Below, piece after piece: positions 24,656 to 56,400 of a stretch of 64,000 nucleotides of DNA (within the stretch, counting starts at the first letter, position 1; every line of letters begins with the position of its first letter). The stretch lies in assembly GCA_029204225.1 (NCBI GenBank), contig CM055106.1, forward strand, positions 21,829,285 through 21,893,284, given 5' to 3'. The translations under genes were made by a program, and so were the position numbers. This stretch comes from Diphasiastrum complanatum (taxonomy: Eukaryota > Streptophyta > Lycopodiopsida > Lycopodiales > Lycopodiaceae). The notes under the pieces are model-generated. The model saw nothing but the letters and a program-made list of their open reading frames with translations, was not told the DNA's origin and made no database searches.

Positions 24656-24699
24656 GTGTTCCTAGATGATTGGGATTTTTTATGAGGGCGGCCACCTAC

Positions 24700-28076: not shown

Positions 28077-30120
28077 CATCATCATCAACATTGACAACAT
28101 TGGAAACATTCTCTTCATGAAAGATGACATCCCTACTTATGACAACTTTATTCATAGAAGGAATGTACACTTTGTAAGCCTTGCTTACTTCACTATAGCC
28201 AACAAACACACCCTTCTTTGATGAAGGATCTTCTTTAGTTCTATCATCAAGAGTGATGTTGACAAAACAAGTACAACCAAAGATCCTACAATGCTTGACA
28301 CTCGGCCTCCCACCATAGAGGACCTCAAAGGAAGTTTTACCATTCAAAGAAGCACTTTTCCTCCTGTTACAAAGATAGTTAGCACATGCTAAAGCTTCCC
28401 CCCAATAGGACTTAGCAAGATTAGCATGTAGTCTCATTGCCTTGGCACATTCACAAAGGATCCTATTCTTTCTTTCTGCCACTCCATTCTGTTGTGGAGT
28501 CTTAGGACTAGAGTACTCCCTCTTAATCCCGTGTGCTATGCAAAAATCTTTGAGCTTATTTGAAGTGTATTCCCCTCCATTATCTGATCTCAAGCATTTG
28601 ATCTTTGTATTGAATTGATTTTCCACTTCATTCTTAAACTTGACAAATGCAGCAAACACTTCATCCTTGGTTTTAAGAAGATAGACCCAAGTATACCTAC
28701 TAAAGTCATCAATAAAAGTTGCGTACATTTTTGCCCCACCATTGCTAGTTGTACTAAAAGAATGAAGATCCAAATGCACAAGTTGAAAAGCTTCTTTAGA
28801 TCTAGAAGTAGATCTAGTATAAGCAAGTCTATGAGATTTGGACAAGGCACAATGTTCACAAAATGTATTATTTGCAACAAGACTTTTAGGGAGACCAAGA
28901 ACATGCTCTTTCTTTGCCATTACCTCCAAAGATTTGAAGTTGGGATGGCCCAACCTCTTATGCCAAACTTCTTGGTTTGTCAATTGTTCCCTAGTCATAC
29001 ATCCTTCATTCTTAGAGATCACACATGCATCCAGTTTGAAAAGTTTACCATGCCTTCTTCTTTTAGCAATCAAGGATCCACACTTACTTATCAAACAAGC
29101 ATCACCAATGAGCTCAACATAAAGCCCCTTGTCAATCATTTGACTAACACTAAGCAAGTTCTTAGTGATTGAAGGAATGTACAATACATTTTCAAGACTA
29201 GCTTTCCTATTTGTTGAAAGAGAATTAGGAATTGTGCCTATGCCTTTGATGTCACATTGACCATCATTTGCAGTATAGATGATGTTGCTCTCTTCCTCAT
29301 AAGACAATAAGGATGAAAAGTATTCCTTATGTCTTGTCATGTGAGATGAGGCTCCACTATCAATCCACCAAGGATCATTCCCATCTATATGTGCAAGAAA
29401 ACTTGAAGTCATAACAAGAGATTCAGAAATGCTATCCTCTTCTTCATCTATTGCTAGATTTCCTTGCCTCTCACCTTGCTCTCTTTTCTTCTTATGACAT
29501 TCATTAGCAAAATGACTTTTTATCCCACAATAAAAGCACTTGAACTTTGACTTATCTTTCTTTCTAAAAGAAGTAGAAGAGGAGGAGGAAGAGTGATCAT
29601 CATGATCCAAGTTACCACCTTTGGACCATTTTCTTTTGCCTTTGCCTTTGCCTTTGACTTTGCCTTTTGTGAAGAAAGCTTCTTCACCTCCACCTTGCAA
29701 GGATGCACCATCAAGCTTTGATTGCAACCTATGTTCTTTAGCCAATAAGGAGTCAACCACACTTGGCAAGACTCTTTCAATGGCAAAACTTTGCACAAGG
29801 TTAGCATGTTCATCTAGCAAACCATTCAACATAACCTGGACTATTTTACCATCTTTTATGTTTTCATCAATACATGCTAGATCATCACTTACGGACTTAA
29901 CCCTCAAGACAAATGCATGAGCACTTTCACCCTCTCTTTGCCTACTAGAAAATATTTGCCTCCTTAGGGTCACTACCCTAGATGTGGACTTTGATTCAAA
30001 GAGCTTCTTCAAGGCATTACATGCCTCACTTACACTTTGACACTTTTCCTTTGCATCCACCATACCGAATTTATTAGCGACTATGCACGGCCAACTGCGA
30101 TTAGGATCAAAACGAACATT
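28077..30120 (-). pseudogene. Copia gag-protease-integrase fused to TNP2
   Basis: An open frame of about 690 codons on the minus strand. Gag core: SVSEACNALKKLFESK and VVTLRRQIFSSRQREGESA. Zinc knuckle: CFYCGIKSHFANEC. Protease: WWIDSGASSHMT. Pre-integrase: VWHKRLGHPNFKSLEVM. Integrase: HLDLHSF, YATFIDDFSRYTWVYLL, CLRSDNGGEYTSNKL, PQQNGVAERKNRILCE and VFVGYSEVSKAYKV, then VNVDDDV where the sequence switches to the CACTA transposase. The gag N-terminus and 5' LTR are missing on the right. Having so long an ORF without a stop suggests recent activity. RT and RNase H are absent here. Confidence 0.92.
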
Positions 30121-31017
30121 GGTTGATTGACGCAAAGTGGCAAGAGAAAATTTGTACAAAAAAAGAAAAAAGAATTTATGCCTTACATTGATCGGTGGTT
30201 CAACGTAACCAAATTTTAAATTGTGTGGAAAAACATTTGCAATAAAATCATTGATCTAATAAAATGTTGTTCGATCTACAGAAATGTCATGCATTATTCA
30301 GTGATCAAAGATGTGATATGAAAGCTAAGAATATGGGTCTAGCCATTCCACCATATGAATAGCCAACACATTTATGTGGGAGTATACATATGTAGATAAG
30401 AAACAAATGAGTTGGCATACCTTGTCAGAGATTAGTGGGAATGAGCGGAAGTTGATGACCGAGCTAGGTGTAGGATCCGAAACGCCACAGTTAGAAGCAG
30501 AACGTTCAAATTTGAATGATTCAGACAAATGCTCAATGAAACAATACAATAGTGAGACTGAGAATTGCACTCTAATTTATATCAAATAGTGAGTACAATG
30601 CTTGAAGTGATAACTTCAGCTTACAATCGTTGAGCGTGATAACACTGGCTACAAGGAAAAACTCGAATAATCAAAAGAAGTTTTCTGATGAAGATTCTAG
30701 GATCTAGTATCCTATAAAATATCGACAACTACCTTTTGTTGCAGCTATTACAACCGCCTCATTATAGTTAATGCATTTACAAAGCGGACTGTCAACACGA
30801 AGTCGTTGGGTCGGCAACAGTACCGAAAAATGTATAATGACTCAAAAAATACTGATTCAAAAAATATAGAAATTTTCAAGTCGATCAAATATTGAAAGTT
30901 TCTAGAAAATTCGAATCTAAATTTTTTGATCTTCTGCTCAGAAACTCGAGCCCTCTATTTTTGGTTTTTCAGTTGCTCATTATTGATAGATTTGAGGTTG
31001 AGCATCAAATTTTAACA
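30121..31017 (-). mobile_element. 3' LTR of copia element C
   Basis: The minus-strand LTR starts at 31017 with TGTTAAAATTTGATG, directly after a purine tract. Its left end is not defined; I place it at the start of the copia gag piece at about 30120. ORFs within it carry no recognisable domain. Confidence 0.6.
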
Positions 31018-31029
31018 CTCCCCCTTAAT
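31018..31029 (-). other. Polypurine tract of copia element C
   Basis: AAGGGGGAG on the minus strand, adjoining the LTR start TGTTAAAA. Confidence 0.8.
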
Positions 31030-31292
31030 GTCGATCCTGAAAACTTTTGATTTTCAGATTCAACATGTCGTTGAATCTGAGATGATGCTCCTTTGACAGA
31101 GACTTTGTGAAGTAATTTGCTGGCATTGATTCTGTCCTGCAATAGACTAAGGATACCTCCTTGCTTTGTACTTTCTCTCTCAAATAGTGATATTTGATTT
31201 TGATATGCTTGCTTCGAGAATGAAATCACCTATGGTGCTTTAGTTCTCACAAAATATGGTTGTTGGATGTGACTGTGCAAGGTCGATTTCCT
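31030..31292 (-). pseudogene. Copia element C, RNase H C-terminus
   Basis: Minus-strand reading gives DLAQSHPTTIFCEN, a stop, then SRSKHIKIKYHYLREKV and SMPANYFTKSLSKEH with frame changes. This is the conserved end of copia RNase H just before the PPT. Its upstream part is cut by the gypsy LTR at 31293. Confidence 0.82.
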
Positions 31293-31732
31293 GCTAGCAG
31301 ATAGTTATGGACTCGGCTCATTACATTCGCCGCGTCCATTTACATTTACTTTACTTTATGCATAAGCAGACCTTGGGCCCTTTTTTATTCATTAGTGACT
31401 CTTAGACTATATGGTTGTCCTTTGGCCTTATTATTCATTATTAGGCCATTTGGACATATTACTGGAGAGTGGGGGCCTTCTTGGAGGGCACACTATTTTC
31501 CCTCCCAGTTGGGCCCTAGCCATCGGACACTTCCTCTTGGCTATAAGTAGGGAAACTATGTCATTTGTTATTCAGCTGATGATATTGATCTCTCTCTTTA
31601 GCCTCCTCAATCTCTCTGTTTTCTACTTTCTAGGGTTAAGTCTTGCTTATGTGCTCCTTTCATAGCTTAAGCCTTGCTTATGTGATGCTTTCATAACCTA
31701 GCTCTAGATCAGCTATGGCTCTATTCGTAGCT
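31293..31732 (+). mobile_element. 5' LTR of nested gypsy element
   Basis: Bounded on the right by the PBS at 31733. The left end is proposed at TGCTAGCAGATAG, which pairs imperfectly with the right end ..CGTAGCT. The segment contains TATAAGTAGGGA-like sequence (near 31540) and CT-rich R/U5 sequence. It interrupts the RNase H region of the minus-strand copia element. Confidence 0.65.
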
Positions 31733-31744
31733 TGGTATCAGAGC
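31733..31744 (+). promoter_or_regulatory. Primer-binding site (tRNA-Met)
   Basis: TGGTATCAGAGC directly follows the LTR. Confidence 0.9.
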
Positions 31745-32427
31745 ACTTTCCTGATTGCTGAATTTTAGATCTGATTTTTTGATTGGGTGCCCATTTTTCT
31801 TGCTGATTTTTTTTCTCTTTGCTGAGAGCTTTTGTCTCTTTGCTTCAGCAACATTCAGCACAGTTTGGAGGAGGATCAGCTCCTATCAAAGCATTTTCCT
31901 TGGCGGAGCTTTAGCAGATAGTAAGCAAAAGTACTTCCACTAAATTTGGCGGTTGGAAAATTTTTTTTTTTTGGACAGATCATTTCCGGTGCCCAAGTTC
32001 CAACCCTCTATCACCCATTTCCAGCTTGTTTGCAGGCTCTCCAGCGCCCAATTCCCTCATCTCTTTCATCCGTTCCTCCTCCCATTTTCAGCCCTCTCAC
32101 TTTTGTTTGCAGGCTATCTAGCCGCTTCATACTTTTCACTTTCATCCGTTGTTGTCTCCGTTTGCAGCCATTTTTCACACCTTGTTTGCAGGCTGTCCAT
32201 TGCCCATCCTCAACCAAATTTCACAAAATTCCGACTCCGTTTGATACTCCAATTTGTCACTTGCCTCCTAGCTGTCCAGCGCATTTTTACAGCTTTCATT
32301 TTCACTTTTTTCATTTGATGATTGTTGTCCTTTCTTAGTTGTGATAATAGTGGTTTTAATAGACTAATTTGGGGTGACGACAAAAGTCTGCTCTCTCAAG
32401 TTTTCGTCTATTCCTTCCACTATTATT

Positions 32428-33976
32428 ATGGCACATTCACCTACCCCGAGTGAGACTACTCAAGAAACCTTATCCGATCAGTTTCGTCCCATGGATGAGA
32501 CCCTTTGTGGCCTCGTTCTTCGCTTCGATACCGTTACGACGGGTTTTGCTACTATGCAATCACAGATTGATTCTTTATAGCCTCATGGTCCTAGTAAAGC
32601 TCCTATTTTTCCTTTATTTGGGACTCCTCCTCCACTTGGATTTCCATCTTCCTCTGCTAGTCAGCTTGGTGGTGGACCGTTCATTCCACCTAACCCACCT
32701 CCTGGTTTCTTTTCACGTCCCCCACTTCTTGAGCCACACTTTGCTCGAGACTCTCGTGATAGGGTACAACTTGCTACCTATTCTGGTTTCTCGTACGAGA
32801 ACTTATTAGGGAATTGGTTTGCTAAGCTTGACACATATTCTCAAATCTACCCTAAGACTGATCCTCAGAAGATCCAGTTGGCTGCTTTACATTTAGATGG
32901 ACGCGTCGCCACATGGTGGCGAGTTTATAGAGCTGATCCTGATCGGGAAGGGCTCCATGTATGGCATACTTTTTGTTGTGACCTCCGTCATGCTATGATT
33001 GATCCTCAGTGGCTCGACCGCCAACGTGATACATTTCGTAGTCTCACTCAGACCAGTGATCTTTCTTCTTATATAGATAAGCTTATGGAGCTTTCTTATC
33101 TTTTCACAGATCTACAGCCCACTGAGCTTGTTTCTTGTTACATTGCCGAGCTTCGTGGTGCTTTATGTTATGATGTTTCTTTCTTCTGTCCTCCCACACT
33201 TGTTGAGGTGATGTCTCTTGCCAGTACTTTACAGCATAAGTACTCTGACACCCTTCCTTCTCACTTCTCCCGAATCTTTTCCCGCTACATCCACCCCTAC
33301 ACCTGCCCCTTATGTTCCAACTCTTTCCATTGTCCCTTCGTCTCCTCGTCCTCCGACTCCTCAACCTGCTTTTGTCCGACGTTACACGTATGCAGAGTTC
33401 GCTGACCTTCAGCAAAAGCGTCTTTGCTTTCGTTATAAGAGTCCTGACCATTTTGCTCGTGATTGCCGTCAACTTCTCCCTACTACTACTACTGCTGTTT
33501 TTTACCATGAGGGCACTACTCCAGATGATTCCAATATCTACATTCATATTTTTGATGAGCCTGACCTATCCTTTGAGCCTTCCACTGATTTACTTCTTGC
33601 TACTTGCCACGGTCAGCTTGCCTATGCTACTTGGACAGGGCGTCTTGGTCCTTGCTCCATTCGGTTACGTGTACGTATTACAGGTCGTGAGTATATTGCT
33701 TTAGTTGATACTGGCAACACTCATTCTTTTATTAGTAGTTATATCACTAGTCAGATCCATGCTTCACCTGTTCTTGCTTCACAGCCTCTCACAGTTGAGG
33801 TTGTCAGTTCCCATTCTTTTCCTAGTTCTCATATGTTTCAGCGTTTACCATACCGCATTGGAGATTTTTCTCGACAGGTAGATCTTTACATTATTCCTAT
33901 GGAGCGTTATGATCTTATCCTTGGTGCTGATTGGTTTGCATCTCTTGGAGCCGTTACACTGCACTTGACACAGTAG
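32428..33976 (+). pseudogene. Gypsy gag and protease
   Basis: Gag starts MAHSPTPSETTQETLSDQF and continues in the same frame past one TAG (32578-32580) to LATYSGFSYENLLGNWFAKL, LHLDGRVATWWRVYRAD and WLDRQRDTFRSLTQTSDLSS, the Retrotrans_gag pattern. Near 33245 the frame shifts by one base. The knuckle reads CFRYKSPDHFARDC, with the second cysteine replaced by tyrosine. The protease has ALVDTGNTHSFISSYI and ends with YDLILGADWFASLGAV. Shortly after (about 34060) the element stops; RT, RNase H, integrase and 3' LTR are lost. Confidence 0.9.
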
Positions 33977-34061
33977 ACATTGACATTTGTACGTGATGCA
34001 GTTACACACTCACTTGTTGGCATTGATTCTCAGGGAGACTTCGAGTTGATTACTGGGAAGC

Positions 34062-36420
34062 AGTTGAATAATAGTATATCATCCACATAGAGGGTGATGA
34101 TGATGAAGAAATTTGATACAGACTTGAAGTAGATGTTCGAGTCTACTAAGTTTGGAATAATGTATTTATTTTTTGGAACTAGGCTCTGGGTGACTATTTC
34201 AGCCCATAGAGTGTCCTGTAAATTTTGCACACAAGGTGTTGCTTACCCCTCAATTCGTATCCTTATGGTTGTGACATAAAGATTTTCTCTTCAATGTTCT
34301 CGTTGAGGAAAGCGGTCTGGGCATCCATTTGATGGACTTCGAGATCTCCTGAGGCTGCAAAGGAAAGTAATAGTCAGATCGAAGCATGTTTGACGATTCG
34401 ACTGAAGGTCTCGGCATAATCTAGATCTGGAATCTAGGAATAGCCTTTGGCGACTAGCCTAGCTTTGTATCGATTTAGCCTTCCTTCAACATCATACTTC
34501 ACCTTGAATATCCATTTGAATGGAATAAAATTTCTTTCCTTTGGAAGCTCAGTGACTGTCCACGTTTGATTCTCTATCTGAGAATCGAATTCCATGTCCA
34601 TCGTTGCTTTCCATTGATTAGCATAAGCTGTAGACATCGCCTTCGAAACTATATTTGGTTCCTGCATGAAGTAGCATACTGCATAGTCCATAAATCTGGA
34701 TGGAGGCTGTTTGGGTCAATTCGATCTTCTTGGTTGAATTTTGACCCTCTGCTGTTCAGACTCATTTTTTGAGTTTGTATCAATTTTCTAGATTTTTTAT
34801 CCTGGAGTCTTTTTCGATACATGGATCAAAAATTTCTTCGATATTTGGATTGGAAATTTCTCGAGCTTTTCTCTTGTGGTTGATAGATTGATCTTTCACA
34901 AAAATGAAATCTCTGCTCGTGAATGTTTCTTCTGTTTCCAAATTGTAGAGCATGTATGTATGGTGATATGGGGGGTAGCCTATGAAAATCGATTTTATGC
35001 TTTTTTCATCCAACTTCTTTCTTAGATATTTGGGGATTTGAGCATAAGCAATGCATCCAAACACTCTAATATTCTTGAGTAATGGTTTTGATCCTGTCCA
35101 TACCTCATAAGGTGTCTTGCCATTCAGGGCTTTGGTGATGGATCAATTTTATAGATAGGTGGCTGTAGTAACAACTTTTGCCTAAAATTTTTTCGGAAGA
35201 GAGGCATTGGCACTTTCGATGAGTGTCTAATTCTTCCGTTCAGCTACACCATTGGACTAAGGTGAGTAGCTAGTTGTGAATTGTTGATGTATTTTGGTGG
35301 ACTTGCATAATTCGGTGGAGATAAATTCTCCCCCTCCATTTGTGCATAGAAGTTTGATCTTCCTCTGGGTCTGATTTTCTGCAAACATCTTGAATTGCAT
35401 GAAGAACTTGAATGCCTTTGATTTCTTTTTTAGAAAATAGGTTACAGTTCTTCGAGAGATTTCATCGATGAAGGTTAGGAGGTATGGAGCTCCCCATTTG
35501 GAAGTAGTTTGCATCGGGCCACAGATGTTGCTATGTACAAGATCTAGCAAGCCTTTGGAAGTATGAATTGAGTCATAAATGAAAGAAGTTCTAGCATGTT
35601 GTTGATTATACAGCCTTCACATGGAGAAGTTGGCTTGATGACAGAAGCAGATCTTGTACTATTCTCTGAGTCGACATTTGTTGAATACTATTGAAGTTTA
35701 AATGGCCTAATCTGAAATGCCAAAGCATATTAGATAATTTAGAGGTAGAAGTGTGAAGTGCTTGACTATTGGAAGAATAACAGTGGCTGAGTTTGTAGAG
35801 GTTGCCACTTCTTCTCCTGAAAGCTAAAACTTTCAAGGATTTGTCAAGGATGGTGCAGCCGATTGTATCGAATTCAACCCTCCGACCTGAATCAGTGATT
35901 TTGCTAACTGAGAGTAAATTCTTGGTCAATTTTGGAACGTGGAGAACGTTGGCCTTTCTGAAATTCAATTTTGACTGTTCCTTCACCCTGGATCGAATAT
36001 GATGAGTTGTCTCCAAATTGCACAACTTAAGAGTGGATGAAAGATTTATGATCTTTGAACCAGTCTTGATGGTGAGTCATGTGTTTAGTTGCTCTAGAAT
36101 CGATATACTAGGAATCGATATCATGTTGTTCTCCGACCTTGGTCATAAAGGCTGCTTCATCTTTGCTGCTCAGTCAAAAAAATTGTTGAAGCACTATGTG
36201 CTTGTTGTTGAAACTGCTTCTTCTTCTCATTGTTAAATTTCAAACTCTTTCAGTCCTTGATTTCAGGTCCAATTCTCTTGCAATATCTATAGAATAGTTT
36301 CTGCTTTGGTAGGAAAGATGAAGAGTTCAAATTCAATCCTAAGCCAAAATTCAACCTTGAGCCAAAATTCGATCATGAGTCAAAATTCAACCCAGACTAC
36401 ATATTGCTCTTCTTTTTGGA
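34062..36420 (-). pseudogene. Copia element C: gag end, integrase and RT start
   Basis: From the right: a degraded knuckle YRYCKRIGPEIKD (about 36270), pre-integrase MLWHFRLGHLNFNSIQQM, integrase DLVHSNICGPM, YLLTFIDEISRRTVTYFLKK and LCTNGGGEFIST, then MFGCIAYAQIPKYLRKKL, SIFIGYPPYHHTYMLY, and RT start NQWKATMDMEFDSQIENQTW with FKWIFKVKYDVEGRLNRYKA RLVAKGYS and finally TLYVDDILLF at about 34065. Multiple stops and shifts are present. RT beyond the catalytic motif and most of RNase H are missing at the gypsy junction. It belongs to a different lineage from the copia pieces at 12.6 and 28 kb. Confidence 0.88.
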
Positions 36421-36602
36421 TCTGAACTTCTGATTTTTGGAATATAGAGCTTGAGGATCCGACCTTGTGCTTGAGGAAGTTGTAGATGCAGGAAACATTA
36501 TTTTGAGCAAACTGTGACAAGATATACTTGTAATTAGTTATAGTTTTCCAGAACAGATGAAGTACAAAACAAGATTTGAGTTTTACACCCCAAATGGCAA
36601 GC

Positions 36603-36824
36603 TCACCTAAACAACTCCGTGACACTCACATCCAACCACCTATACTTAGTTTGCAAGCTCCAAAGTAATAGGCAAGCTCGCAAATTTGACATTTGTGCAC
36701 CCTCGTACAAAGGAGTGGATGCCAAGGCACACATCATGTCTTCTTCCCTTGTCAATGTGGCTTCGGGTGGGTTTGTGAAGAATGCATCCATCATGTCATC
36801 CATGTCACCCTCGTGATCGTGCAT
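36603..36824 (-). pseudogene. CACTA transposase N-terminal exon
   Basis: Minus-strand ORF MHDHEGDMDDMMDAFF... continuing to TPLYEGAQMSNLRACLLLWS and YRWLDVSVTELFR, then GTGAGCTT, a good splice donor. The TNP2 copy at 53.28 kb starts its next exon with LLKNKILPEGN, so the exon boundary agrees. Sequence to the left (36420-36600) has no further TNP2 exon. Confidence 0.78.
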
Positions 36825-36924
36825 TGTGATATGTCCAACGATGTATGACTAAAAATCTCGATAATTGCATCAGGCCCCGAGATATCCCCAAAATATTGTC
36901 GTGTTGTTTAAAAAGTGTACTTTT

Positions 36925-37030
36925 CGAGGGATATATCGAGGGACGTCAGTATATCCCTCGGGTGTTAGACTCATCGAAGTGAGTGTGTTCCGAGGGATAT
37001 ATCGAGGGCGGTCGGTATATCTCTCAGCCT
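36925..37030 (+). repeat. Duplicated hairpin motif
   Basis: CGAGGGATATA (36925-36935) pairs with TATATCCCTCG (36950-36960) across a 14-nt loop. A second, less perfect copy starts at 36991 (CGAGGGATATATCGAGGG) and ends TATATCTCTCAG. Unit spacing is 66 bp. Confidence 0.8.
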
Positions 37031-37328
37031 ATAAACTGATTTGCCTAGAGTGTGTTCTGAGGTTTTTTTGAGGACCATAAAGATTAATTTTTTGACAATT
37101 ATTCCAAGGGACAGAAAATGCATAAAAAAAATTCAAGGTAGAATAGAGCCATAGTACTAGTTTCATTTTGCTCTAAATATGGACTCCATTCAGCCCTAGG
37201 AGTCTTTTTCGCCACTTCTGATGAAGTTGGTAAGCAAAATCATTTGTTCATAATTGTGAATAAATTTATTTTCAAATGTTTAAGATACATTTCATACACT
37301 TAAAGACTGATGAAGTACACTTATGATA

Positions 37329-37421
37329 AACAAAATATATATTCATACATAAATGTTCCAAGTACAAAGATATATTAAACAAAATACATATTCATACATA
37401 AATGTTCCAAGTACAAAGCGT
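37329..37421 (+). repeat. Tandem duplication, unit about 48 bp
   Basis: Two near-identical copies of AAACAAAATAYATATTCATA followed by CATAAATGTTCCAAGTACAAAG. Confidence 0.85.
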
Positions 37422-37476
37422 GTAGCCAATAGTATCATGAAATCATTGTTTTTATCAACGATCTCGCTCAACCATA

Positions 37477-38286
37477 ATGAATCCATCTACTAGTTCTTCT
37501 CTAATCAACAGACTCGATGGGAGTAACTACCATCTCTAGAAGTTCAAAATGAAGGTCACACTACTAGCCAAGGAACTGTGGAACATTATTGATGGCACAA
37601 AAACTAAACCTGAAGGTGATGCAGCCACTATCACCAAATGGAGATTGAAAGATGACAAGGACTTTGCCGTTATTACTCTCAATATCAAAGACAATCAAAT
37701 CAGTCACATACATGATGTTCAGACGACTAAGGATGCATGGGACATCCTAGTGACCCTCTACGATATCAGGGACGTCACCTCCAAACTCCATTTGAGGAAG
37801 AAATTTTTCACCCTGAGAATGTCTGAAGCAGTAAGTGTTTCGAGCCATATCAAGACTTTCCAAAATCATATGGTACAGATGACTGCAACTGGCTCAATCA
37901 TAGAAGATATCGATGCTGTTATAACTCTATTATTGAGTCTTCTTGAGGCCTATGAGACTCTGGGTCCTCGCAATTTCGATCCAGGAGAAGATCACCCTTT
38001 CAAAAATGATTTTATTACTTCAACAAGAGGAGGCAGACAAGAAGCCAAGAAAATGCTATCGGTAGTCGACATGGATTACAAGAGTATTCATGCATGTCAC
38101 AACGATTGTATTTTATATCGACACGAGTTTGAGGAGCCAAGCACGTGTCTACATTGTGGGAAAACCCATTACATGCAAGATTTATGGGGAGACACCATAC
38201 CCTCCAAAGTGGTATCACCACAACATTTTGGAAGATTTTTGACCCTATTACCGAGGTTAAGCAAAAAAACAAAAAAAATCAGATAG
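37477..38286 (+). pseudogene. Chimeric ORF: copia gag fused to CACTA transposase
   Basis: The first part is a copia gag of the LDGSNYHLWK type: MNPSTSSSLINRLDGSNYHL, a TAG in place of Trp, then KFKMKVTLLAKELWNIIDG and TTKDAWDILVTLYDIRDVTS up to about 37960. Without a stop it changes to TNP2: EAKKMLSVVDMDYKSIHACH NDCILYRHEF, CLHCGKTH and IPSKVVSPQHFGRFLTLLPR L, matching the copy at 53.3-53.6 kb (HACPKDCILYR, CPICDTP). The main open segment is 245 codons from 37549. Whether it is expressed is unknown. Confidence 0.85.
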
Positions 38287-38289
38287 TTT

Positions 38290-38890
38290 AGAGTCAAGGA
38301 TCTAATGAAGGAGGCTCAGGGATCTAGGGTAAGTGGATTAGGGTAAGGGTCTTAGATTTTAGGTTTAAGGGATTAGAGTCTAGGGCTTAGGGTTTATAAT
38401 CTATAATAAAAGAGTTAGGGCTTTGTATTTAGAGGTTAAAGTTCAGAACTTAGGGTCTAGTGTTTGGAATTAAGGGTAAGGGATCTAGGAAAAAGGGTTA
38501 AGATTAAAGTGTTAGGATTTTAGGGCTTAGGACTTAGGGTTTAGGATTTAGGATTTATGGTAAGGGCTCTAGGTAAGGGGATTTACGGATCTAGCACTTG
38601 GGATTTAGTACGGAGTTTAGTGCGAGTTTAGAGTATAGGGTTTAGGATTTAGAATTTAGAGTAAGTTGTCTAGGGAAATGGGAATAGGGTATAGGGTTCA
38701 GGGTTTAGGGTATAGGATTTAGAGTTTAACATTTAGGATATAGGGTTCAAAGTTCATAGTTTAGAGTTTAGGATTTAGGGATGAGGGTATAGGGTTCATG
38801 GTTCAAGGTTTAGGGTTTGGCATTTAGGATATAGGATTTAGGATCCAAGGTTCATGATTTAGAGTTGAGGGTTTAAAGTTTACAGGTCAG
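38290..38890 (+). repeat. Degenerate telomere-like array
   Basis: Dense variants of TTTAGGG / TTAGGGTTTA / TAGGGTTTAGGATTTA over 600 bp, none in long perfect runs. It starts right after the TNP2 part of the chimeric ORF. Confidence 0.85.
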
Positions 38891-44479: not shown

Positions 44480-44524
44480 GCACGATTTCTTATACGGCCC
44501 TTTTAGAATCGAAAACTCCTCTAA
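44480..44524. mobile_element. MITE terminus, same family as 25.5 kb
   Basis: ACGGCCCTTTTAGAATCGAA followed by AACTCCTCTAAT matches the right end of the 25490-25863 MITE (AAAGGGTC...AACTCCTCTAATG). The other end was not found, so this is a truncated copy. Confidence 0.65.
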
Positions 44525-44549
44525 TTATGTCTAACATTCGACAAATGTT

Positions 44550-44880
44550 GTGCAATGCTTTTTGCTAAGTTTAAAAAAAATGATTGTGATGCTACGATTT
44601 GGAAAGAACACTACAAAAATGATTCAATTTTCAAAATCCAATGAGCAAATCACATCATTTGAAACATACATAAAACTTCTTACCAACAATGACAATCAAT
44701 CACCAATACAATGTAACGGCTTTTGTTTGTTTTGGTTTTGCAAATGCATGAATTATAAGTTAGTAGTGTCAACAAGGGCATATTATTTCATCACTTTCAT
44801 AAATGATATGTCTCGTAAGGCTTGGATATACTTCTTAAAAAAGAAACTGATTCAACAACAACAATTCAAAAATTTGTGAC
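44550..44880 (+). pseudogene. Copia integrase relic
   Basis: The ORF includes YYFITFINDMSRKAWIYFLK KK, the integrase core motif (F-I-D-D-x-S-R-x-x-W), with N for the first Asp. The upstream FGKNTTKMIQF has no match to known motifs. The piece ends at about 44880. Confidence 0.65.
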
Positions 44881-44938
44881 ATGCATCCAATTTTCAATTG
44901 GAACAATGAAAATCATCATTATACAAACAAATGCTGGA

Positions 44939-45098
44939 AACAAAGTAAATGTGTATCCTTGGAAAGAACCAAGAACAATAGAACTCCCTATCTCATCAAA
45001 CAACAAAAAACGAAATGACAACAAAGTAGATGTATATCCTTGGAAAGAACCAATAACGATAGAACCGCCTATCTCATTAAACAACAAAAAATGAAAGT
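44939..45098 (+). repeat. Tandem 81-bp repeat within an ORF
   Basis: Two copies encode NKV(N/D)VYPWKEPxTIExPIS and preserve the frame (81 nt = 27 codons). Nucleotide differences between the copies are few. Confidence 0.8.
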
Positions 45099-45099
45099 G

Positions 45100-45872
45100 A
45101 TACAAATGGACAAAAACAATGAAACAAAATCTACACTCTCTAATAAATCAATTTCACCAAAAAAAAACTTTTACAAAACTTAGAATAAATTGATTTTTAA
45201 AATAAATGACAAATGTTATAGATTTCATCTAACATTCCAATGTATGTTAAACACTTATAACAAACTACTATCTCAATTTTGAAACTACAAAATAATTTAT
45301 CACAACAATATAAAAAAACACTTTAAACAAATCTAAAATTTTAGGATTCATGCTATTATGACATGGCAAGGCCTTTGTGGTACAATACCACATCGTTCTT
45401 GTTTTTAAAATTTTCATGTTTTTTTTGGGCAGCGGTCGCGCTGCCCCACGGGCATACTGACCTTGCACAAAAAAAAAAAAAAAACTTCCCATTTTTCAAA
45501 AATTTTAACCCTCCCCTTTGACCACCCATCCGTCCAAAACTCCTGCCATGCCCACCCAAAACTCCTGGCCGCACACTTGTGGGCTCACATCGCTAGTCTC
45601 TAAATAAAGAGAGAACTTTATTATTTAATCCTACTTTACTGGTGAAATACATTTCAGACACTAGGAGTGTTGCAGACCGTACATGATTCCATGTTGTCAT
45701 GTTGTTGCATCTGACTGAATCCATAAAAACACCAACCATCAAATGCAGAAAGCAAGCAATTCTGCTAAGATTTTTTAAATTGATGAGAGCACACTCTATT
45801 TGTTAGTGGAAAAGTTACAGGAGACCGCAACAGATTCCTGCTATTGAGGAATGGACGAGTATGCAGGATTGC
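45100..45872. other. 3' flank of the MDR gene, no other gene
   Basis: It contains an A-run at 45470-45484 and a GC-rich island near 45430. No domain-bearing ORF was found. Confidence 0.4.
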
Positions 45873-47538
45873 TTACTTAGTTTGAAGCAACACTTTTCCA
45901 GCTCTAGCAGACTTTCTAGTTTCATGCAAAGCTTGCTTGGAATCCAAGAGATTAAATTTCAGAGCTGGTGGAAGCCTCCATATTCCCTCCTCAAAAAGCT
46001 TCCAGCAAGCTTTGATAGCAGCTTCTTTCTTCTCTTTCTCTAAAAAGTAAGAGCTTGCATTCCATGAAGAGATCTCCACCTTCCTCCATAGATCCTCTTG
46101 TGAAATGACCACATCAAAACTGTCCAGCTCGCCTATCACCATCACCTGACCTCCATCTCTGACAGAAGCTGCCACGCTCTGGAACACAAAGCGAACATTG
46201 ACAATTACTTTTCAGCAACTATTGGAATTTGCATGGAACTGAATGCTTGAACAGCAAATGTGCAATTTTGTGAAAGGTGCAGGAAAGATGTAAGAATGCA
46301 ACACCTTTGTCAAAGTTCCTCCAACTAAATCAATACCGAGGTAGGCACCTCCACCGTTGGTGAACGTCTGTAACATCAGGACTTAGGTTCAGAATCTTGA
46401 AACTAGTCAGCCTGATAGAACGGGACTTGCCTGGACAACTCAGATTTACTTGCATCGTAATAACAGCCTGAAGTGATGAGCCTAGATAGCTAACTATGTT
46501 GTACATTTACTGGACATGAAACAGTTTAATGGTTTAGTCCTTGCCTTCAAGGGCGCTATTGATCACCGCTACAGCTCCTAATGAAATTAATTCCTCCTTC
46601 ACATCCTCGCGCCTGACAATGGCAATGATCTTGTAGCCTTCGTGGGCTGCTAATTGGATAAAGAGCCTGATACAACAACTTCAACCCATCAATCTATTGC
46701 TGATTTTCAAGCACACATCATAATTGGAAGAGCGCTAGCTCATTAGGCTGTACAAGCGTACTAAAATAAAAAATTGTGAAAATGAAGCACACCTGCCAAC
46801 TGTAGATGCAGCGGCAGTGATCAAAATGTACCCTCCCTTGGGAGAATCGATTCTTTGCAAAGCCCGTATACTGTCCAAGGATTAGAGCTGAATTGAGTTG
46901 CGATGTCATCTTCAATTTTATCTGGAACTGGGATCGGACTTTCTTCTTTGATTAAGATATAGTCTTGCCACGACCCCTGGAAATATGGTAGCAAGTACGA
47001 GAATGTGATATCAAGGTGAACCCGCTGTCCCGGAGAGCACAGAGTAACACCTTTTCCGATCTTGGACACAAAACGCATACATTATATTAGCTTGACGTTT
47101 GTATTACTGTTGTTCTCGAATGATCCATCTATGCCAGACATTGAACAAGAAAAGGCAAAAAGAAAGATAGCTTAAATTTTTAAATTTGATCTGGCTTACT
47201 AACACTGCTCATCTCATTCAAGAGTTACTGCATTCATCTCCGGACTAGCTGGTATGACACATTACTAAAGCAATGGTAGTGGCGAAGAATTGCACCTCTT
47301 CAACGATTCCCAGACCACCTTCATGTCCAGCAACAACACCCGTATTCTTCAGTGTTTCTGAATTCTTGCCAAGATCAAAGAATACCTCTGCAACACTGAG
47401 ATCGGAGCAGAGAACAAGGTCGAACGGATGCACAGGCCTTGACAGTATGCGCATAAGGACTGGCAAATGCAGCAGGTGAAGCACCTTCTCAACTTCTCCG
47501 ATCTCCTTGAACACGAGAGCTCTATTGCCATGCTCCAT
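45873..47538 (-). CDS. MDR-superfamily oxidoreductase, five exons, probably frameshifted
   Basis: Proposed exons: 47538-47296, 47060-46793, 46666-46540, 46367-46305 and 46178-45873, about 335 residues, the usual MDR length. Exon 1: RALVFKEIGEVEKVL, VRILSRPVHPFDL-like MRILSRPVHPFDLVLCS and VVAGHEGGLGIVEE. Exon 2: IGKGVTLCSPGQRV, GSWQDYILIKEESPIPVPD, NPWTVYG and GGYILITAAASTVGR. Exon 3: LFIQLAAHEGYKIIAIVRRE DV (Rossmann NADPH fold). Exon 4: GGGAYLGIDLVGG. Exon 5: SVAASVRDGGQVMVIG to GKVLLQ. No catalytic zinc cysteine cluster is seen, favouring a quinone-oxidoreductase or enoyl-reductase type. Within exon 2 one T seems missing near 46858, shifting the frame before GGYIL. The exon 3 donor reads AAG|GA, not GT. 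It may be a pseudogene or contain sequence errors. Confidence 0.78.
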
Positions 47539-47586
47539 CCTCCTCCTCCTCCTCCTCTCTGTCTCTGTCTCTGTCTCTCTCTCCCC

Positions 47587-47664
<78 letters not shown>
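47537..47664. repeat. Compound microsatellite (TCC)n (CT)n (TA)n
   Basis: TCC units from 47537, CT units to about 47612, then about 23 TA units to 47664. It lies immediately upstream of the MDR start codon, in the presumed 5' UTR/promoter. Confidence 0.95.
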
Positions 47665-48566
<902 letters not shown>

Positions 48567-48959
48567 TGAGTTGCAAAGATGTGACAACCATAAAAGTGAA
48601 AGAGAAGCAGTTTCATGATCAAATCAAAAGCATCACAAAGTTGAATTAGAGTGGCAGATTTTTTCTATGTTTTCGTCATTGTGTATGTGTTAGCCTTTTG
48701 CTTAGCAATAAGCATTGGTCCTCAACCCATGAATTCACCTTAGTGATAATTGTGTCAAGTTATTATTGTATATTATTAGCTAAGGCTTTTTCCCTAAGAC
48801 TTATCAGAAATGCAATATACGATTGAAGCTTTGTAGTAGTGTTAGAATTCTTATGCTCAACCTTCAAAATCGTTAAGTAATGAGCATCTTGAAAGCAGAA
48901 GGCCGACAACATGATTGCGGACCTTCACATTTTTCCCTTTTTAAGTTTTTTCCATTTAT

Positions 48960-50728
48960 GCCTTAAAACGATTTAATGCACCTTTGCTTCTTACCTTCCT
49001 CGCCCTTTTTAGTGCCTTCACGAAAAAAGCGACACAATGGCCAAAATGACTTGAAAACCATTTCTGGACCACCTTCGTCTTTTTTGTCTCTTTGCAAAAA
49101 ATGCGACACTAAACCCAGTTTGTTCAAATTTTTGGGCACTCAGACAAAATGAGGCAATATTGTTTTCTTCTGATCCATGCCATCAATAACAAGGCCCTGA
49201 TATTTTTGTGGACATTCCAGACATTTCTGTCGATGCTTGGCCAACTTTTGTCTTTCAACTATTTGTTGATCTCTGTGCAGTTGAAGAGCTTTTGCAACAT
49301 CCACTGAAAATACAATGATTCACTTATGTAATAGAATAAAGATCATACCATAATGGTATTAAAAAAGACTGCAACATAAAGTTTTTCAAAGCAAAAAGTA
49401 TTAAAATGAATGACAAATTTGATTAATATTTACCTTTCTTGTCATTGGTCTTTGCAAGTTGTTTTGCAGACTTTAACAACTCGCAAGTGGAGCATACTGT
49501 CATTCGTGATTGTTTGGGAATCTTTACCAGTCCAAAATCTCTGTTCCAAATTCTAAAAAAAAAAAAAAACTCAAATAGAGAACATTTTTTGTTTTGGCAA
49601 ACTCTTTGTACATCAAAAATATTTCTAATTTTGTAAAATTATCCAGCAAGTGAAAATATAAGTGATTAGGCAATTTCTCTCCATGCACATCTATGAAATG
49701 CTTTTTCCAAGCAGTTGCATTTAAAGCATATGGAGAAACAGTTCGACCCTGTAAGGATCCCCGTAATGTTGGGTCTTTCTGAAGTTGTGCATGCATTTGT
49801 TGAAGCCGTGAGTTTCCGATTGCGTGAACTGCTTTGTAAGCTTTGCGACAAACCTCCAAAGCATTTAAAAAATACAAAAATGAGTTTTTGTCCGGCCTCA
49901 CTGTTGCACACAAATAGTAATTTCTCTCATCCTTACTTCGTAAAAAGAAGTTTGATCTTAATTCTTCAATTTCTCTGATAGTCAGCTTTTGCAAACAACA
50001 GGATGAGCAGCAAATAATATTCCGTACCTTTTGAATCTCAGATTTTGTAATCAACTATTTTTGACGATTCGTTAAATCAGGTGAGGACCTCAAGTCTCTC
50101 TTGTATTTTTCTTTTTGTTTGGAGTCTGATCTATAAATTGAATCTGTGACACTAGTAGGTGCTTGAACTGGTTGAGAAGGTGTTGAATTTTATGACTCAA
50201 AATTCTGGCTCCAACTTCAGGATGTTATGGACCCTCAGAAGGCTCTAAATTTTCAACGAATATAGCCTTTGTAGATCTAACACGACGAACATCACTTTAA
50301 AAAGATCTCCTACGAACATGAGAAAAGCTTGAATGTCGTGGATCAACAAACTTACGCAGATCTGTTGATTTACTAGAATCAGTAATTGAGTGAATTGAAG
50401 CTTTTGACTCATCACTCAATGATTCAACTTGTTCAAAAGAACAATATTCTAATTGTGCAGAGCCTGTATCTGAAGAGGAGGACGAGGTAGAAAGATTTGA
50501 CACAAGCTGAGTTACAAGTGTTATTTCTTGAAAAGTACTTGCTTGAGGAATTTCAGAAGATGAACGGGTAAATGATGATGATGCCACATCATTTACGAGA
50601 ACGTGTTCAGATTCAGAAGTGGCCTCATAGAAAAAGCTTTCATTGAGAATATCAGATAAAGATGAAGCACTTGTTGTAACGTATTGAGTTACAACTACTA
50701 GAATAGAAGAGGTAGAACTACTTGACAT
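48960..50728 (-). pseudogene. Transposase-like gene with IDGMDQ motif, introns
   Basis: The N-terminus (50728-50297) is Ser-rich (MSSSSTSSILVVVTQYV). The central part (50054-49524) has CCSSCCLQKLTIREIEELRS NF, DERNYYLCATV, LNALEVCRKAYKAVHAIGNS RLQ and LPNHLYFHLLD. It continues after a probable intron with WNRDFGLVKIPKQSRMTVCS TCELLKSA. A GT-AG intron (about 49430-49308) leads to KALQLHRDQQIVERQKLAKH RQ and YQGLVIDGMDQKKTILPHF, followed by a stop. The CxxC and VCRKA(Y/F) signatures and IDGMDQ resemble a family of uncharacterised eukaryotic transposon proteins; I cannot assign the superfamily. Frameshifts near 50060-50290 and the downstream stop mark decay. Confidence 0.62.
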
Positions 50729-50977
50729 TGTAGAAGAAATTTTAACTATGTACTTATGCTAAGCATAGACCCGTTAAAATAGTTAACACAAAACTAAATG
50801 TGCTCACAAACTTAACTGCAACCTATGCTGGTCATAGAACAAATATAAAGCTATGCGAACTTCAATAGACGTATACAAGAAAAACAACTAAATGCAAATG
50901 AGCAACAAGCCTAGAAAGTAACTGGTTAATTAAAATTTCCAGCAGCTACCATGCCTTAAATATTGTTTGGCAGCATC

Positions 50978-51119
50978 CTTAGGGTTAGGGTTGACCCAAG
51001 TGTAGGTTTAGGGTTAGGTTTAGGTCTGGACGGTCCCGGCTCAGGTTGTGAGTCGGTCCTGACGCAAGTTGTGAGTCGCGGCAACTCGATCCCGACGCAA
51101 GCTGGAGGTCTAGCGTCAC
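50978..51119. repeat. Short telomere-like stretch plus repeat GTGAGTCG
   Basis: TTAGGGTTAGGG and GTTTAGGGTTAGGTTTAGG occur at 50979-51027. They are followed by two imperfect units sharing GTTGTGAGTCG and CTGACGCAAG/CCGACGCAAG. Confidence 0.7.
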
Positions 51120-51365
51120 AAGAACATATATAGCAAATATCCATGCACAATACAAAGGAGGATGCGCGGGCAAAAAAAAATTTGCGTGGATATAGCCGTG
51201 GATTGGCGTGGATATACACGTGGATACAAGCGCGTGGATGTTCCACACAAATGTCATTTCCGGCAGCAGATCTGCCGGATGTCGTGAAATTCAAAATGCG
51301 TGGATTATCCATGCCAAGTCCGACTACCGGCAGCCGGGCAAACCTCTGACACCCGGAGCCGGAAA
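51120..51365. repeat. Palindrome-family dispersed repeat, copy 2 (inverted)
   Basis: It contains GCGTGGATATA, CCGTGGATTGG, GCGTGGATATACACGTGGATA, GCGTGGATGTTCCACACAAA and GCGTGGATTATCCATGCC. The reverse complement shares TTTGTGTGGAACATCCACG and GGATTATCCATGCC with copy 1 at 24.1 kb. Here the sites are mostly single half-sites, not the full palindromes. A separate inverted pair GGCAGATCTGCC lies near 51263. Confidence 0.8.
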
Positions 51366-51499
51366 TAGGAATTCTAATTTCACGTATGTGATGCCAAAAT
51401 ATTATATTAATTGATCTAAAAACAAGTACATTGATGAGAGAATAAATTGGCATTATGGAGTAGGATATAATCATGTGGCTCGGGAGTTTCGATTAGTAG

Positions 51500-52507
51500 T
51501 TGGTTTCAAGAAAAAGAGTTGCAAGAGAGATCAAGAATATTATTGATAGGATAAATCACATGAATATTGATTTTGGATCATCATTGGCCCTAGATGATGC
51601 TCTTGTTGATGATGACCCCTTGCATGATATAATTAGTTCATCAATGCCTTGTGATTCAATCCATGTCTCCAAATCTCTAGAACATTCTTACCACCCAACC
51701 ACACCTATCCTAGATGTTGCACATGAGTCCTCCATGATACTCCACGTGCATTCCACAAACATGACCACTCCTTTAAAAAAGAGAACACGTCTTGGATGCA
51801 TTATGACTAATTTGAAAGATAATTGCAAATTACTACGCACTGTTGATGTGTCTAACATTCTAGGTTCTTTGTCTGACCTTCCTCTTCCACCTAGCTTGCA
51901 ACCATTAGTAAAAACTTTTATTAGAAGTAGATATTCGTGTTGGCCACTCCAATCACCATTACCATTAAATGGAACACCATTTACGTATTGGGGTTGAATG
52001 TACATGATCATGCCTAGTGAACACTTTCTTGAGGCTGGTTTGGGCCTTTTTGCATTGAGTAGTATTGAGGTCCCTTTAAATAATGGTGTGACATTGATGC
52101 CATATGCAGGACCTCAATACAATTGGGGCGATTGGCATGCTTTGTGTCGTCACCAATGGAGGATGCAAGTATATGGCTTGAATTCAAATGTTTGTTCTTT
52201 AGAGGAGCAACGCGTGCAAGGAGGCAACATCTCGAGGGCAAATCGTACATACATTGATGGACGTCCAGATGTGCATGGAAACATTGTTGCATATATAAAT
52301 AGTTCCATTGAACACCCTCTATTGACGAATTGTGATTTTGAAGAACGCACCAATGAAAAAGAAGAATATTTTACTAGGAATGTAAAGGGCACTTTTGTAA
52401 TGGTCTGTGCCACTAGATCTATCAGGTTTGGAGATCAATTGTTCATCAAGTATAGTTTCAACCGTCCTCTACCCAAATGTTTGAAAAAGACAATTAGTCA
52501 AATGTGA
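51500..52507 (+). pseudogene. SET-domain-like protein, one internal stop
   Basis: One frame runs from 51500 to 52507 (335 codons) with a single TGA at 51995-51997. The N-terminal 165 residues show no known domain. After the stop, the sequence has SET-like order: FLEAGLGLFALSSIEVP, VTLMPYAGPQY, DGRPDVHGNIVAYINSS (counterpart of the N-H/INHS block) and FVMVCATRSIRFGDQLFIKY SF (counterpart of the GEELTYDY block). The last motif has IKYSF, so the catalytic tyrosine is only partly recognisable. It lies about 300 nt upstream of the CACTA transposase on the same strand. The methyltransferase function is inferred from the fold pattern only. Confidence 0.65.
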
Positions 52508-52811: not shown

Positions 52812-54683
52812 ATGCAATACAACAGTCCACATATAAAGCAATTACCTTGTCGTCTACGTCAAGGCTTAAAAGAGATGATGGAAATTGATGAGCACATTAA
52901 TCAAGAGACTAATGCATCTGAATATAGCTCATCTAGATCTACTTCTTCGCAAACAAGTTCCAACGATGAAAATGAGCTTCCAATGAATGATGAATTTGAA
53001 GTCATGGGAGACATGTTGGATGATATGAACAATATTGCAGCTAGACACAATGAATAAGATGAGGAGGCACTTTTGTCTAAAGAAGAAAGAAAATTACGAG
53101 AAGAATCAAAGACCACATTGTATCCTGGAGCAAAGACATCTTCAAGCCAAATATAGATGGAGTAACCAAAGCCTCACATCATTACTTGAGTAAATTTTTT
53201 TTCAACTACTTGCCATTTTTGCTTTGAAACAAAATTTACAATTTGGACATCGAGTGATATTTTTTTTACAATGATTCTATTGTCATGTACAGACTATTGA
53301 AAAACAAAATTCTCCCAGAAGGGAATGTCATGCCTGAGACAAGAGATGAGGCACGAAAGATGTTGTCTAACATCGGGATGGACTACAAGCAATATCATGC
53401 ATGTCCAAAAGATTGTATTTTATATCGAGGAAGGTACAAATCACTCAAGAAATGTCCCATTTGTGATACTCCTTGATAAAGAGATAATTTACAAGGGGCA
53501 AGCATTCCGTGCAAAGTTTTACAACATTTTCCAGTAATTCCACGATTGCAACGTTTATTTCGTTGTAAATCTCTTACACAACTTATGGACTGGCATGCAC
53601 ACCATACCTCTATGGATGGGATGATGAGGGTACCTTCAGATTCACCTGCATGGAAACACATCAACAAAGAGTATCCAAGCTTTGCCAATGAGTCAAGAAA
53701 TGTGAGATTTGGTCTTGCAACAGATGGTGTGAACCCCTTTGGTGTACAAACAACTATGTGGTCCATTTGGCCTGTTTGCTTGGTAAATTATAATATTCCT
53801 CCTTGGTTGAGTACAAAAAAGAGACACGTTATGTTGGCACTTCTGATTCTTGGCCAATGCAAGGTTAAGAACATGGATGTGTATCTTGAGCCGCTTATTG
53901 ACGAGTTGGAAGATTTGTGGAAGGGGATAAATGCATATGACATTTCTTGCCCCTTACATGAGAGGGAGTTTACACTACATGCCATTGTAATGTGGACAAT
54001 GCATGACTATCTAGGATTAGGTAAATGCTCAGGTAATCATTCAAACACTGTCTATCTTGTGTACATAGGAGTTTGTTTACAATTACATACAACTAGTAAC
54101 TCTTGACATTTACATGATATACTACAATGGCTATAATTATTCTTTGACATATACTTTTTTTAATAGTGATTGACAGTATCCATTTGTTGGGTAGACTTTC
54201 AAACGGCTGGAAAAAATGCTTGTTTTTTGTACGGGCCAAATCTTGTGGGAAGATACTCTTTTAGTCTCAAAAAAGTGGTTTATGAAAATCATCGTAAATA
54301 CTTGCATGAAGGCCATCCATTCAGAGACACTCATAGAAGAGGTTTTGGAGGAAGAGTTGAGAGAGAGATGCCTCCAAAGAGGATGTCCGTGAAAGATTGG
54401 CAAATACTATGGGAGGAATCTCAAGCAAAGCCAATCGATGGTATGAAAAGATTATCTATATTTCATTGTTTGGAATATTGGAATAACCTTTTAATTGATC
54501 ACCTACTTGATCCCATGCACATATTTAAAAATGTGGGTGAATCTATTTGGAAACACTTGATTGGTGAAAAAGATACCATTGCTGCAAGGCACGATCTAAG
54601 AGAATCAAACACCAAAAAAGAATATTGGATAAAGGATGGTGAAGATCATGCTCCAAAAGTACCTTGGACATTCACTGAGGAGC
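52812..54683 (+). pseudogene. CACTA transposase (TNP2-like), N-terminal half
   Basis: Acidic N-terminus (52812-53110: MGDMLDDMNNIAARHNE, TTLYPGAKTSSSQ), then after an acceptor (TGTACAG, 53296) LLKNKILPEGNVMPETRDEA RKML, the zinc-like HACPKDCILYR...CPICDTP, HHTSMDGMMRVPSDSPAW, FGLATDGVNPFG, WPVCLVNYNIPPWL and VMWTMHDYLGLG. After a further intron come LYGPNLVGRYSFSLKKVVYE NHRKYL and LLDPMHIFKNVGESIWKHLI. Stops and a frameshift occur near 53476-53546. The reading ends with VPWTFTEE and then, in the same frame, enters copia sequence at about 54684. The C-terminal half is missing here. Confidence 0.9.
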
Positions 54684-56345
54684 ATGATGTGCAAGATGCC
54701 TTGGATGAAGGTGGAGATGCCACTCCAAAGCAACCTTCAAGGAGGACTCAAAGGCAAAGGACTAAGCCATCAAGGCTAACCTATGATGAAAAAGGAAAGC
54801 AAGTGGTGGAGAACTCTAACTTTGCTTTTCTTACCTCTTTTGATGAACCAACTTGTGTAGGTGAAGCAATTCAAAAGGAGGAATAGATCCAAGCCATGGA
54901 TCATGAGCATCAAGCACTCATCAAGAACAACACTTGGAGGTTGGTGGAACTTCCAAAAGGCAAGAAGACAATTGGGTGTAAGTGGATCTTCAAGATCAAG
55001 ACAAAAGAAGATGGATCAATCAAAAGGTACAAGGCAAGATCGGTGGCAAAAGGGTATGCTCAAGAGTATGGCATTGACTATGATGAGACCTTTGCACCCA
55101 TGGCAAAGATGGTACCAATTCGAACGCTTATCTCTCTTGCAACTCTTTATGGTTGGGACATGTGGCAAATGGATGTTACTAATGCTTTTTTGAATGGTGA
55201 TCTTGAAGAGAAAATCTACATGGAGCAACCCAAGGGCTATGTTTCACATGATGAGCCTAATCATGTGTGTTTCCTACAAAAGAGCTTGTATGGGCTTAAG
55301 CAAGCACCAAGAAGTTGGTATGCTAAGCTCAATTCCTTCTTACTCTCTCAAAACTTCATCATGAGTGAGTATGATCATTCTCTCTACTTTAGATTGAATG
55401 ATAATGGTGACATCACTTTGCTTTTGATCTATGTTGATGACATAATCTTAAGTGGTGATAGCAATGAATATATAGATGACATCAAGATGGCACTTAAAAG
55501 TAAGTTTGAGATACAAGATCTTGGTAAGCTTCACTATATCTTAGGAATAGAGATTGTTAGGACTTCTAATTCTACTTTCATTTGTCAAGAGAAGTATTTT
55601 AACTATATTCTTAAAAGATTTCATATGGAAAATTGCAAAGTAGTTTCTACTCCTATGGAATCGAATGTAAAGCTATCTATAAGAGGTAATGAAAGATCCT
55701 TCAAGGACATTACTCTCTATAGAAAGCTCATAGGATCTCTTATTTGGTTAACCATCACAAGACCTGATCTAAGCTATGTGGTTGGTAAACTAAGTCAATT
55801 CATGCAAGATCCTAGTGAGGCTCATTGTAAGCTAGGAAAGAGAGTACTAAGATACCTCTCGGGATCTAGAGATTTTGGCATCTTGTATGAAGGATCTTCA
55901 CCTAACCTTTGTGGTTTCTCAAATTCAAATTTTGCAGGTGATCAAATGGATAGGAAGTCAACAAGTGCCTTTGCAATATATCTTGGAGAGGGAGCTATCT
56001 CATGGCTATCAAAGAAGCAACCTACTATCTCTCTATCTTCCACCGAGGCCGAGTACAAGGCATTGACAACATGCACCAAGGAGATGCTTTGGATAAAGAG
56101 GATGCTATTGGATCTTGACTTGCTGGATTCTAAGAAGACACCAATCATCTATTGTGACAACATTTCAGCCCAAAGCTTGGCAACCAATCCAGTTTTCCAT
56201 GCTAGAAGCAAGTACATTGTGATTGCTCATCACTTTGTGAGGGATCAAGTCATTGCCAAAGAGGTGGAGCTTCAACATATCTCTTAATTGGAGTGTGTGG
56301 CTGATATATTTACCAAACCATTGGGAAAGAACCTATATCATAAGC
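54684..56345 (+). pseudogene. Copia linker, reverse transcriptase and RNase H
   Basis: Starts HDVQDALDEGGDATPKQPSR in frame with the preceding transposase, giving a chimeric ORF up to a TAG at 54884-54886. From 54896 a 463-codon ORF holds nearly complete RT: IGCKWIFKIKTKEDGSIKRY KA, YDETFAPMAKMVPIRTLISL, WQMDVTNAFLNGDLEEKIYM, LKQAPRSWYAKL and catalytic LLIYVDDIILSGD. RNase H has FAGDQMDRKSTSAFAIYLG, SLSSTEAEYKAL, YCDNISAQSLATNPVFHARS K and, past a TAA, ADIFTKPLGKN. Catalytic residues of RT are present. It is the best preserved copia RT here. Confidence 0.94.
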
Positions 56346-56400
56346 ATATATCTAATCTTGGAATGTGTTCAAGATCTATGTTAAAACTAGCATCCAATGT

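Follow-up and report, generated by a model that had tools for sequence, protein, structure and literature searches.

We examined a 64,000-nucleotide stretch of Diphasiastrum complanatum DNA (hereafter the window; C15:21829285-21893284 of the organism's own 1.74-Gb genome) that carries two reciprocal fusions between a copia retrotransposon and TNP2, a transposase gene of the CACTA type. A single 26.6-kb inversion (28074-54682), with one end in each element, very probably accounts for both fusions, as judged from the aligned sequences. A second copy of the locus, which we call P, carries the uninverted order, with both elements unbroken at these points; this is the order that the original prediction, which had proposed one inversion of this interval, suggested looking for in other copies. 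The pieces concerned are, in window positions:

26600-28076, minus strand: C-terminal half of TNP2, cut on its 5' side; contiguous with the N-terminal half in nine of nine copies, P included (26600 marks only the reach of the alignments).
28074-30045, minus strand: copia gag-protease-integrase piece, from Pfam matches and junctions; the chimera junction is at 28074 and a second break (of inversion I_b, below) at 30045.
52787-54682, plus strand: N-terminal half of TNP2, with Pfam Transposase_21; the family alignment begins at 52787 in six of nine copies.
54683-57079, plus strand: linker, reverse transcriptase (RT)-RNase H and 3' end of the same copia, with Pfam RVT_2; 54683-56775 is 98.5% identical to the copia of P, and the match to L010 extends to 57079.
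60631-61834, minus strand: 5' piece of the same copia, severed from the gag-integrase piece by I_b; in five other copies (L007, L010-L013), 8 bp separate it from the 30045 end.
28074-54682: segment inverted in the window lineage (I_c, 26.6 kb), from the adjacencies in P.

Both chimeras lie where they had been predicted, on the evidence of Pfam matches and of junctions set by relatives. In the left chimera, the open reading frame (ORF) 28057-30255 (minus strand) matches copia gag, Pol_BBD, gag_pre-integrase, integrase and SH3 in Pfam; copia ends at 28074 and is followed by TNP2, out of frame. On the N-terminal side of the right chimera, Transposase_21 (tnp2) is found in 53480-54106 (plus strand, E 2e-52) and again in the continuation, 54170-54886 (plus strand), at E 6.5e-6 and 25.9 bits, slightly below the curated cut-off of 28.6. 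Copia begins at 54683, and RVT_2 lies in the ORF 54887-56287 (plus strand). The right fusion had been described as in frame; the frame does stay open through a short copia linker, and a stop follows at 54884-54886. Alignment with relatives places the exact junctions at 28074 and 54683 in copia and at 28076-28077 and 54682 in TNP2. At the left junction, where the bases (like those of the other junctions) were read by eye from aligned sequences, copia GATGATGATG-TTG is joined to TNP2 TTG-CAAGG, with 3 bp (TTG) shared; at the right junction 0 bp are shared. The two similar 14-mers that had been taken for about 14 nt of shared junction sequence are present, but the right one is entirely copia. About 93 bp of TNP2 were lost, so that missing TNP2 sequence was rightly predicted but its size is 92-94 bp, not about 85; copia lost 17 bp as well, a loss that had gone unnoticed.

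Both families are abundant in the genome, with 1754 copia and 1593 TNP2 first-look candidates; each DNA search scored the best 40 candidates only, and the copy lists are consequently samples. Twelve fetched copia loci were read, corresponding to seven distinct places including P (L002 is the same place as L009, L003 as L012, L005 as L011, L006 as L013 and L008 as L010; L004 and L007 are single), together with nine TNP2 copies (L017-L025, of which L019 is P). In all seven copia places, the bases corresponding to window 28074 and 54683 lie exactly 17 bp apart on one element. The TNP2 halves are back to back in all nine copies, P included, at a spacing of 83 bp in one and 92-94 bp in eight. Given halves that lie back to back (copia 7/7, with a constant gap; TNP2 9/9), a chance pairing can be dismissed, and the alignment of halves with family members that had been proposed as a check places each pair in one family. 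In P both elements are uninterrupted across the break points, and so is the respective element in the other six copia and eight TNP2 copies. The copia of P is the closest of the seven to both halves (99.0% and 98.5%), and P is also the closest TNP2 copy over the full stretch read. When the left chimera was used as a query, 39 other matches were listed: 37 have their start precisely at 28074, the other two start some 20 bp before it, and not one extends further into the TNP2 side. The left-half flank (28-35 kb) was compared with the right half, at 51-64 kb, for a long terminal repeat (LTR) match, and none was found; nor was a copia 5' LTR seen beside the 5' piece, where the match to L010-L013 ends at 61834.

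P is an 82-kb stretch of the same contig (C15:22780060-22862000), 0.95 Mb from the window, and covers nearly the whole window and its flanks. The two copies differ by 1.5% (1162 of 76,878 sites; only alignment blocks with 850 or more columns and an identity of 94.5% or higher were counted). In window coordinates P reads +(-3703..6418), +(52827..54682), -(28076..6426), -(52328..38036), +(36487..38034), -(36487..30044), -(60630..54683), +(28074..30052), +(60727..64297). Thus at the ends of I_c, +(52827-54682) adjoins -(28076-6426) and -(60630-54683) adjoins +(28074-30052). The left flank is collinear between the two copies for a further 29 kb, insertions and deletions aside. On the right, window 64307-68154 is reversed in P, and its near end is displaced 33 kb further along.

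The comparison of window and P resolves four overlapping inversions within 55 kb, of 26.6 kb (I_c), about 23.5 kb (I_a), 8.4 kb (I_b) and 1.5 kb (I_d). A fifth, I_e, of 33 kb and with one end seen, is probable. The features that mark the other inversions are:

6418-6426: one of the two breakpoints of I_a (about 23.5 kb), which occurred in the P lineage; the order in the window is the older one and is continuous in 39 of 39 other listed copies.
30044-36487: flanking segment; by copy comparison, its neighbor is copia in the window but 60630 in P and in all 37 of the other listed copies.
36487-38034: segment inverted by I_d (1.55 kb), in the window lineage; the order of P is continuous in 39 of 39 other listed copies.
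52328-52827: other breakpoint of I_a, from the comparison with P and the 94-bp filler; P is without about 500 bp here.
57409-60630: segment within I_b (8.4 kb), in the window lineage, from the comparison with P; the breaks are at 30045 and 60630/60631.
64000: window end; by comparison with P, I_e starts 297 bp further on, at 64297, and the right flank is reversed in P.

Other copies of the sequences give the direction of each change. For I_c it is the window that changed, third copies being unbroken. The same holds for I_b, which broke the copia a second time, at 30045, and left its 5' continuation at 60631-61834: the joint found in P is spanned by all 37 other listed copies at 73-86% identity (the remaining two rows of that listing are the two window pieces), and the copia side is continuous, with the 8-bp gap, in the five copies L007 and L010-L013. 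For I_d the window changed as well, the joint of P being spanned by all 39 other listed copies; at its right junction in the window, a copia gag ORF (37540-38286, plus strand) is fused to a TNP2-like N-terminus, as judged by eye from the translation. For I_a it is P that changed: the window joint is spanned by all 39 other listed copies, and the window retains 40 bp of TNP2-family sequence absent from P. I_e also points to a change in P, on the evidence of one copy (L013); since one end alone was observed, an inverted transposition may stand in its place. In all, three inversions fall in the window lineage and one, probably two, in the P lineage.

The order of events was explored by exhaustive enumeration of all signed arrangements of the seven inner blocks, 645,120 in number. 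The reversal distance between window and P is 4, for eight broken adjacencies, and a distance of 4 or less is reached by only 444 of the 365,457 orders in which all eight adjacencies are broken. All eight shortest paths use one and the same set of four inversions, I_c among them. Since window and P cannot be connected by fewer than four reversals, and no other set of four will do, the differences are better described as a series than as the product of shattering. I_c comes after I_b in all eight shortest paths, and also in all three paths that lead to the window from the inferred ancestor, which is P with I_a undone.

The I_b junctions share about 2 bp and 0 bp; copia lost 8 bp there, and the other site about 22 bp. 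The I_a joints in P carry a 94-bp filler at one end and 2 bp at the other, and about 500 bp are missing. All 94 positions of the filler match C10:41977650-41977743; among the other copies listed, the best full-length match reaches 90% and shorter partial ones up to 94%, and we infer that C10 supplied the template. For I_a-I_d, a comparison of the paired breaks out to 400 bp found no shared arms; the longest exact word, of 15 bp, belongs to I_c and lies away from the breaks. The absence of homologous arms at the breaks fits end joining and does not fit recombination between repeats. The marks of a two-break inversion repaired by end joining are present: both reciprocal junctions, an old order given by relatives, 0-3 bp of microhomology, and small losses or filler. 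Comparison of the assembled copies shows that in the window's ancestor both TNP2 and the integrase-RT part of copia ran unbroken through these points, and that the 26.6-kb segment with an end in each of them is now reversed, which gives the two reciprocal chimeras together with the copia and TNP2 losses described above. By parsimony, I_b came first and had by then cut that copia near the start of gag. The 1.5-kb inversion also arose in the window copy, and that of about 23.5 kb, with probably one of 33 kb, in P. Each would have required two double-strand breaks repaired by non-homologous or polymerase-theta-type end joining. The chimeras themselves are presumably by-products without function.

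Other origins of the two fusions have to be weighed against this series. The competing reading set beside the original prediction, two independent insertions of truncated copia elements, with deletions, into two TNP2 copies, can appeal to the abundance of both families, among which chance pairings do happen. It is rejected on the common family of the halves, the copia gap of exactly 17 bp in seven of seven places, and P, which is the closest copia place for both halves and keeps both elements unbroken between the same flanks. Neither junction lies at an LTR end. We take the state of P as refutation, and the probability left to this reading is negligible. Recombination between inverted repeats, or an aberrant CACTA transposition, is scarcely credible: transposon sequence does lie at the breaks of I_b, I_c and I_d, but homologous arms are absent within 400 bp for I_a-I_d, and the I_c breaks fall inside TNP2 and copia coding sequence, not at the element termini that an aberrant transposition would involve. 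A single chromothripsis-like shattering with random reshuffling would explain why all seven inner segments are moved or flipped relative to P, and why one joint carries filler; it is very improbable given that only four reversals are needed, with no reuse of breakpoints, a result so rare among fully broken arrangements, and that inversions occurred in both lineages.

That the window was misjoined during assembly is made somewhat easier to entertain by the duplicated material that the assembly has apparently retained. As the cause of the reciprocal junctions it is nevertheless unlikely, as far as the sequence allows a judgement: the breaks are reciprocal, with small deletions and no shared arms within 400 bp, they form an ordered series across both copies, and the count of N is zero in the window, in P and in nine further stretches (L041-L044 and L047 standing outside the count). 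Several observations do weigh against the inversion series. Each junction rests on one assembly. The matches to the left chimera come from the best 40 candidates scored, which limits any statement of its uniqueness. Over the 485 bp of TNP2 beside the break, P is narrowly outscored by two copies from other contigs, C9 and C1678. Finally, the copia of P has a 104-bp deletion in the gag region that starts, within one base, at the window's I_b break (window 30045; L009:5157-5158), a coincidence that may reflect chance or a fragile site.

The relation between window and P was considered separately. We infer that they are probably the two haplotypes of one transposon-rich locus, both retained in the assembly. 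Several plant MutS genes are expected to be single-copy. The 31 matches to MutS_V exons in the genome correspond to eight or nine genes, of which five are paired at equal or nearly equal score (the pairs were compared by score only) and three stand alone, or four if one weak match is included. The pairs are between C8 and the small contig C934, between two places on C17 328 kb apart, between two on C14 270 kb apart and in opposite orientation, between C12 and C14, and between C1 and C4. In several genome match lists, equal-scoring pairs are also seen on one contig, roughly 0.1-1 Mb apart and in either orientation, and these suggest that both haplotypes were kept in the pseudochromosomes. The alternative, in which P arose by genuine segmental duplication, 0.95 Mb from the window, and the inversions lie between paralogues, is possible but less probable. 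It is favored by the position of window and P on one chromosome-scale contig and by the equal-scoring gene pairs that also occur across different contigs; against it, several genes expected to be single have a second copy close by or on a small contig, the pattern that retention of both haplotypes would leave. Two findings count against the haplotype assignment and allow P as a true local duplication: in two of the five MutS pairs the partners are on separate chromosome-scale contigs, and in one of the nearby pairs, that on C14, the listed matches include a partner for just one exon. Were P a true duplication, the conclusions on the inversions would stand, but the inversions would not be allelic.

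Some blocks exist in only one copy of the locus. P alone has blocks of 10 kb at window 43572, 1.2 kb at 21048 and 2.4 kb at 51448, and no clear target-site duplication was seen at any of the three. The 10-kb block (C15:22825904-22835993) lies between window 43572 and 43576; it was the one block of the three compared with itself, and showed no LTR pair. The 2.4-kb block at window 51448 (P index 36018-38364) is 97.6% alike to window -30112..-27737; its displacement, about 80 kb in window terms, suggests that it is either a mobile element or a fragment that was moved. At 62530-62969, direct and inverted repeats of 106-151 bp are clustered, and P has this cluster too. Directly upstream of the TNP2 N-terminal half is a SET-domain-like ORF (51998-52507, plus strand; Pfam SET, E 9e-5), whose end was lost in P at I_a.

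The junctions resemble those of plant double-strand break end joining with filler, for which excerpts of PMC7156093 describe small deletions, little microhomology and filler matching a template elsewhere. According to the same excerpts, templates lie more often on the same molecule, whereas here the filler matches another chromosome-scale contig; here, too, four overlapping inversions, and probably a fifth, are crowded together. The rearrangement hotspots of Arabidopsis accessions, as far as the available text of PMC7033125 describes them, likewise show several independent rearrangements of one region across haplotypes, with enrichment of rearrangements in pericentromeres; unlike the present locus, they are characterized in its abstract as disrupted by tandem duplications. 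The 33-46 inversions per genome relative to the reference given there are far sparser than four, probably five, in roughly 100 kb, a comparison that is loose and biased because our locus was chosen for looking broken, and because SyRI, used for the Arabidopsis counts, keeps non-overlapping inversions only (PMC6913012, in part). In Brassica napus, the portion of PMC12599057 available reports inversion breakpoints rich in Copia and Gypsy, in keeping with copia at the breaks here; the present case differs in that the breaks are placed to the base and that the two reciprocal products and the order before inversion are all available. Among the records that it listed, a literature search on nested or overlapping plant inversions surfaced nothing directly comparable.

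The event is of an ordinary kind, in an unusually dense and well-resolved series. We raise only tentatively the possibility of an inversion hotspot: both copies of this transposon-packed region, about 100 kb long, would repeatedly break and rejoin, through breakage of particular elements and not through repeat recombination. This idea comes from five inversions (the fifth probable) at 1.5% divergence, from a repair patch matching another chromosome and from the repeated involvement of one copia, which carries two inversion breaks in the window and whose counterpart in P has a deletion starting at the same base (within one) as one of them. Chimeric transposon fusions are easily mistaken for nested insertions or new elements. 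At this locus both fusions of the pair, the arrangement before inversion, the lineage concerned and the relative order of the steps can be read to the base, and they show that an inversion can create matched pairs of fusions. If the density seen here holds elsewhere, small overlapping inversions in transposon-rich DNA would be undercounted.

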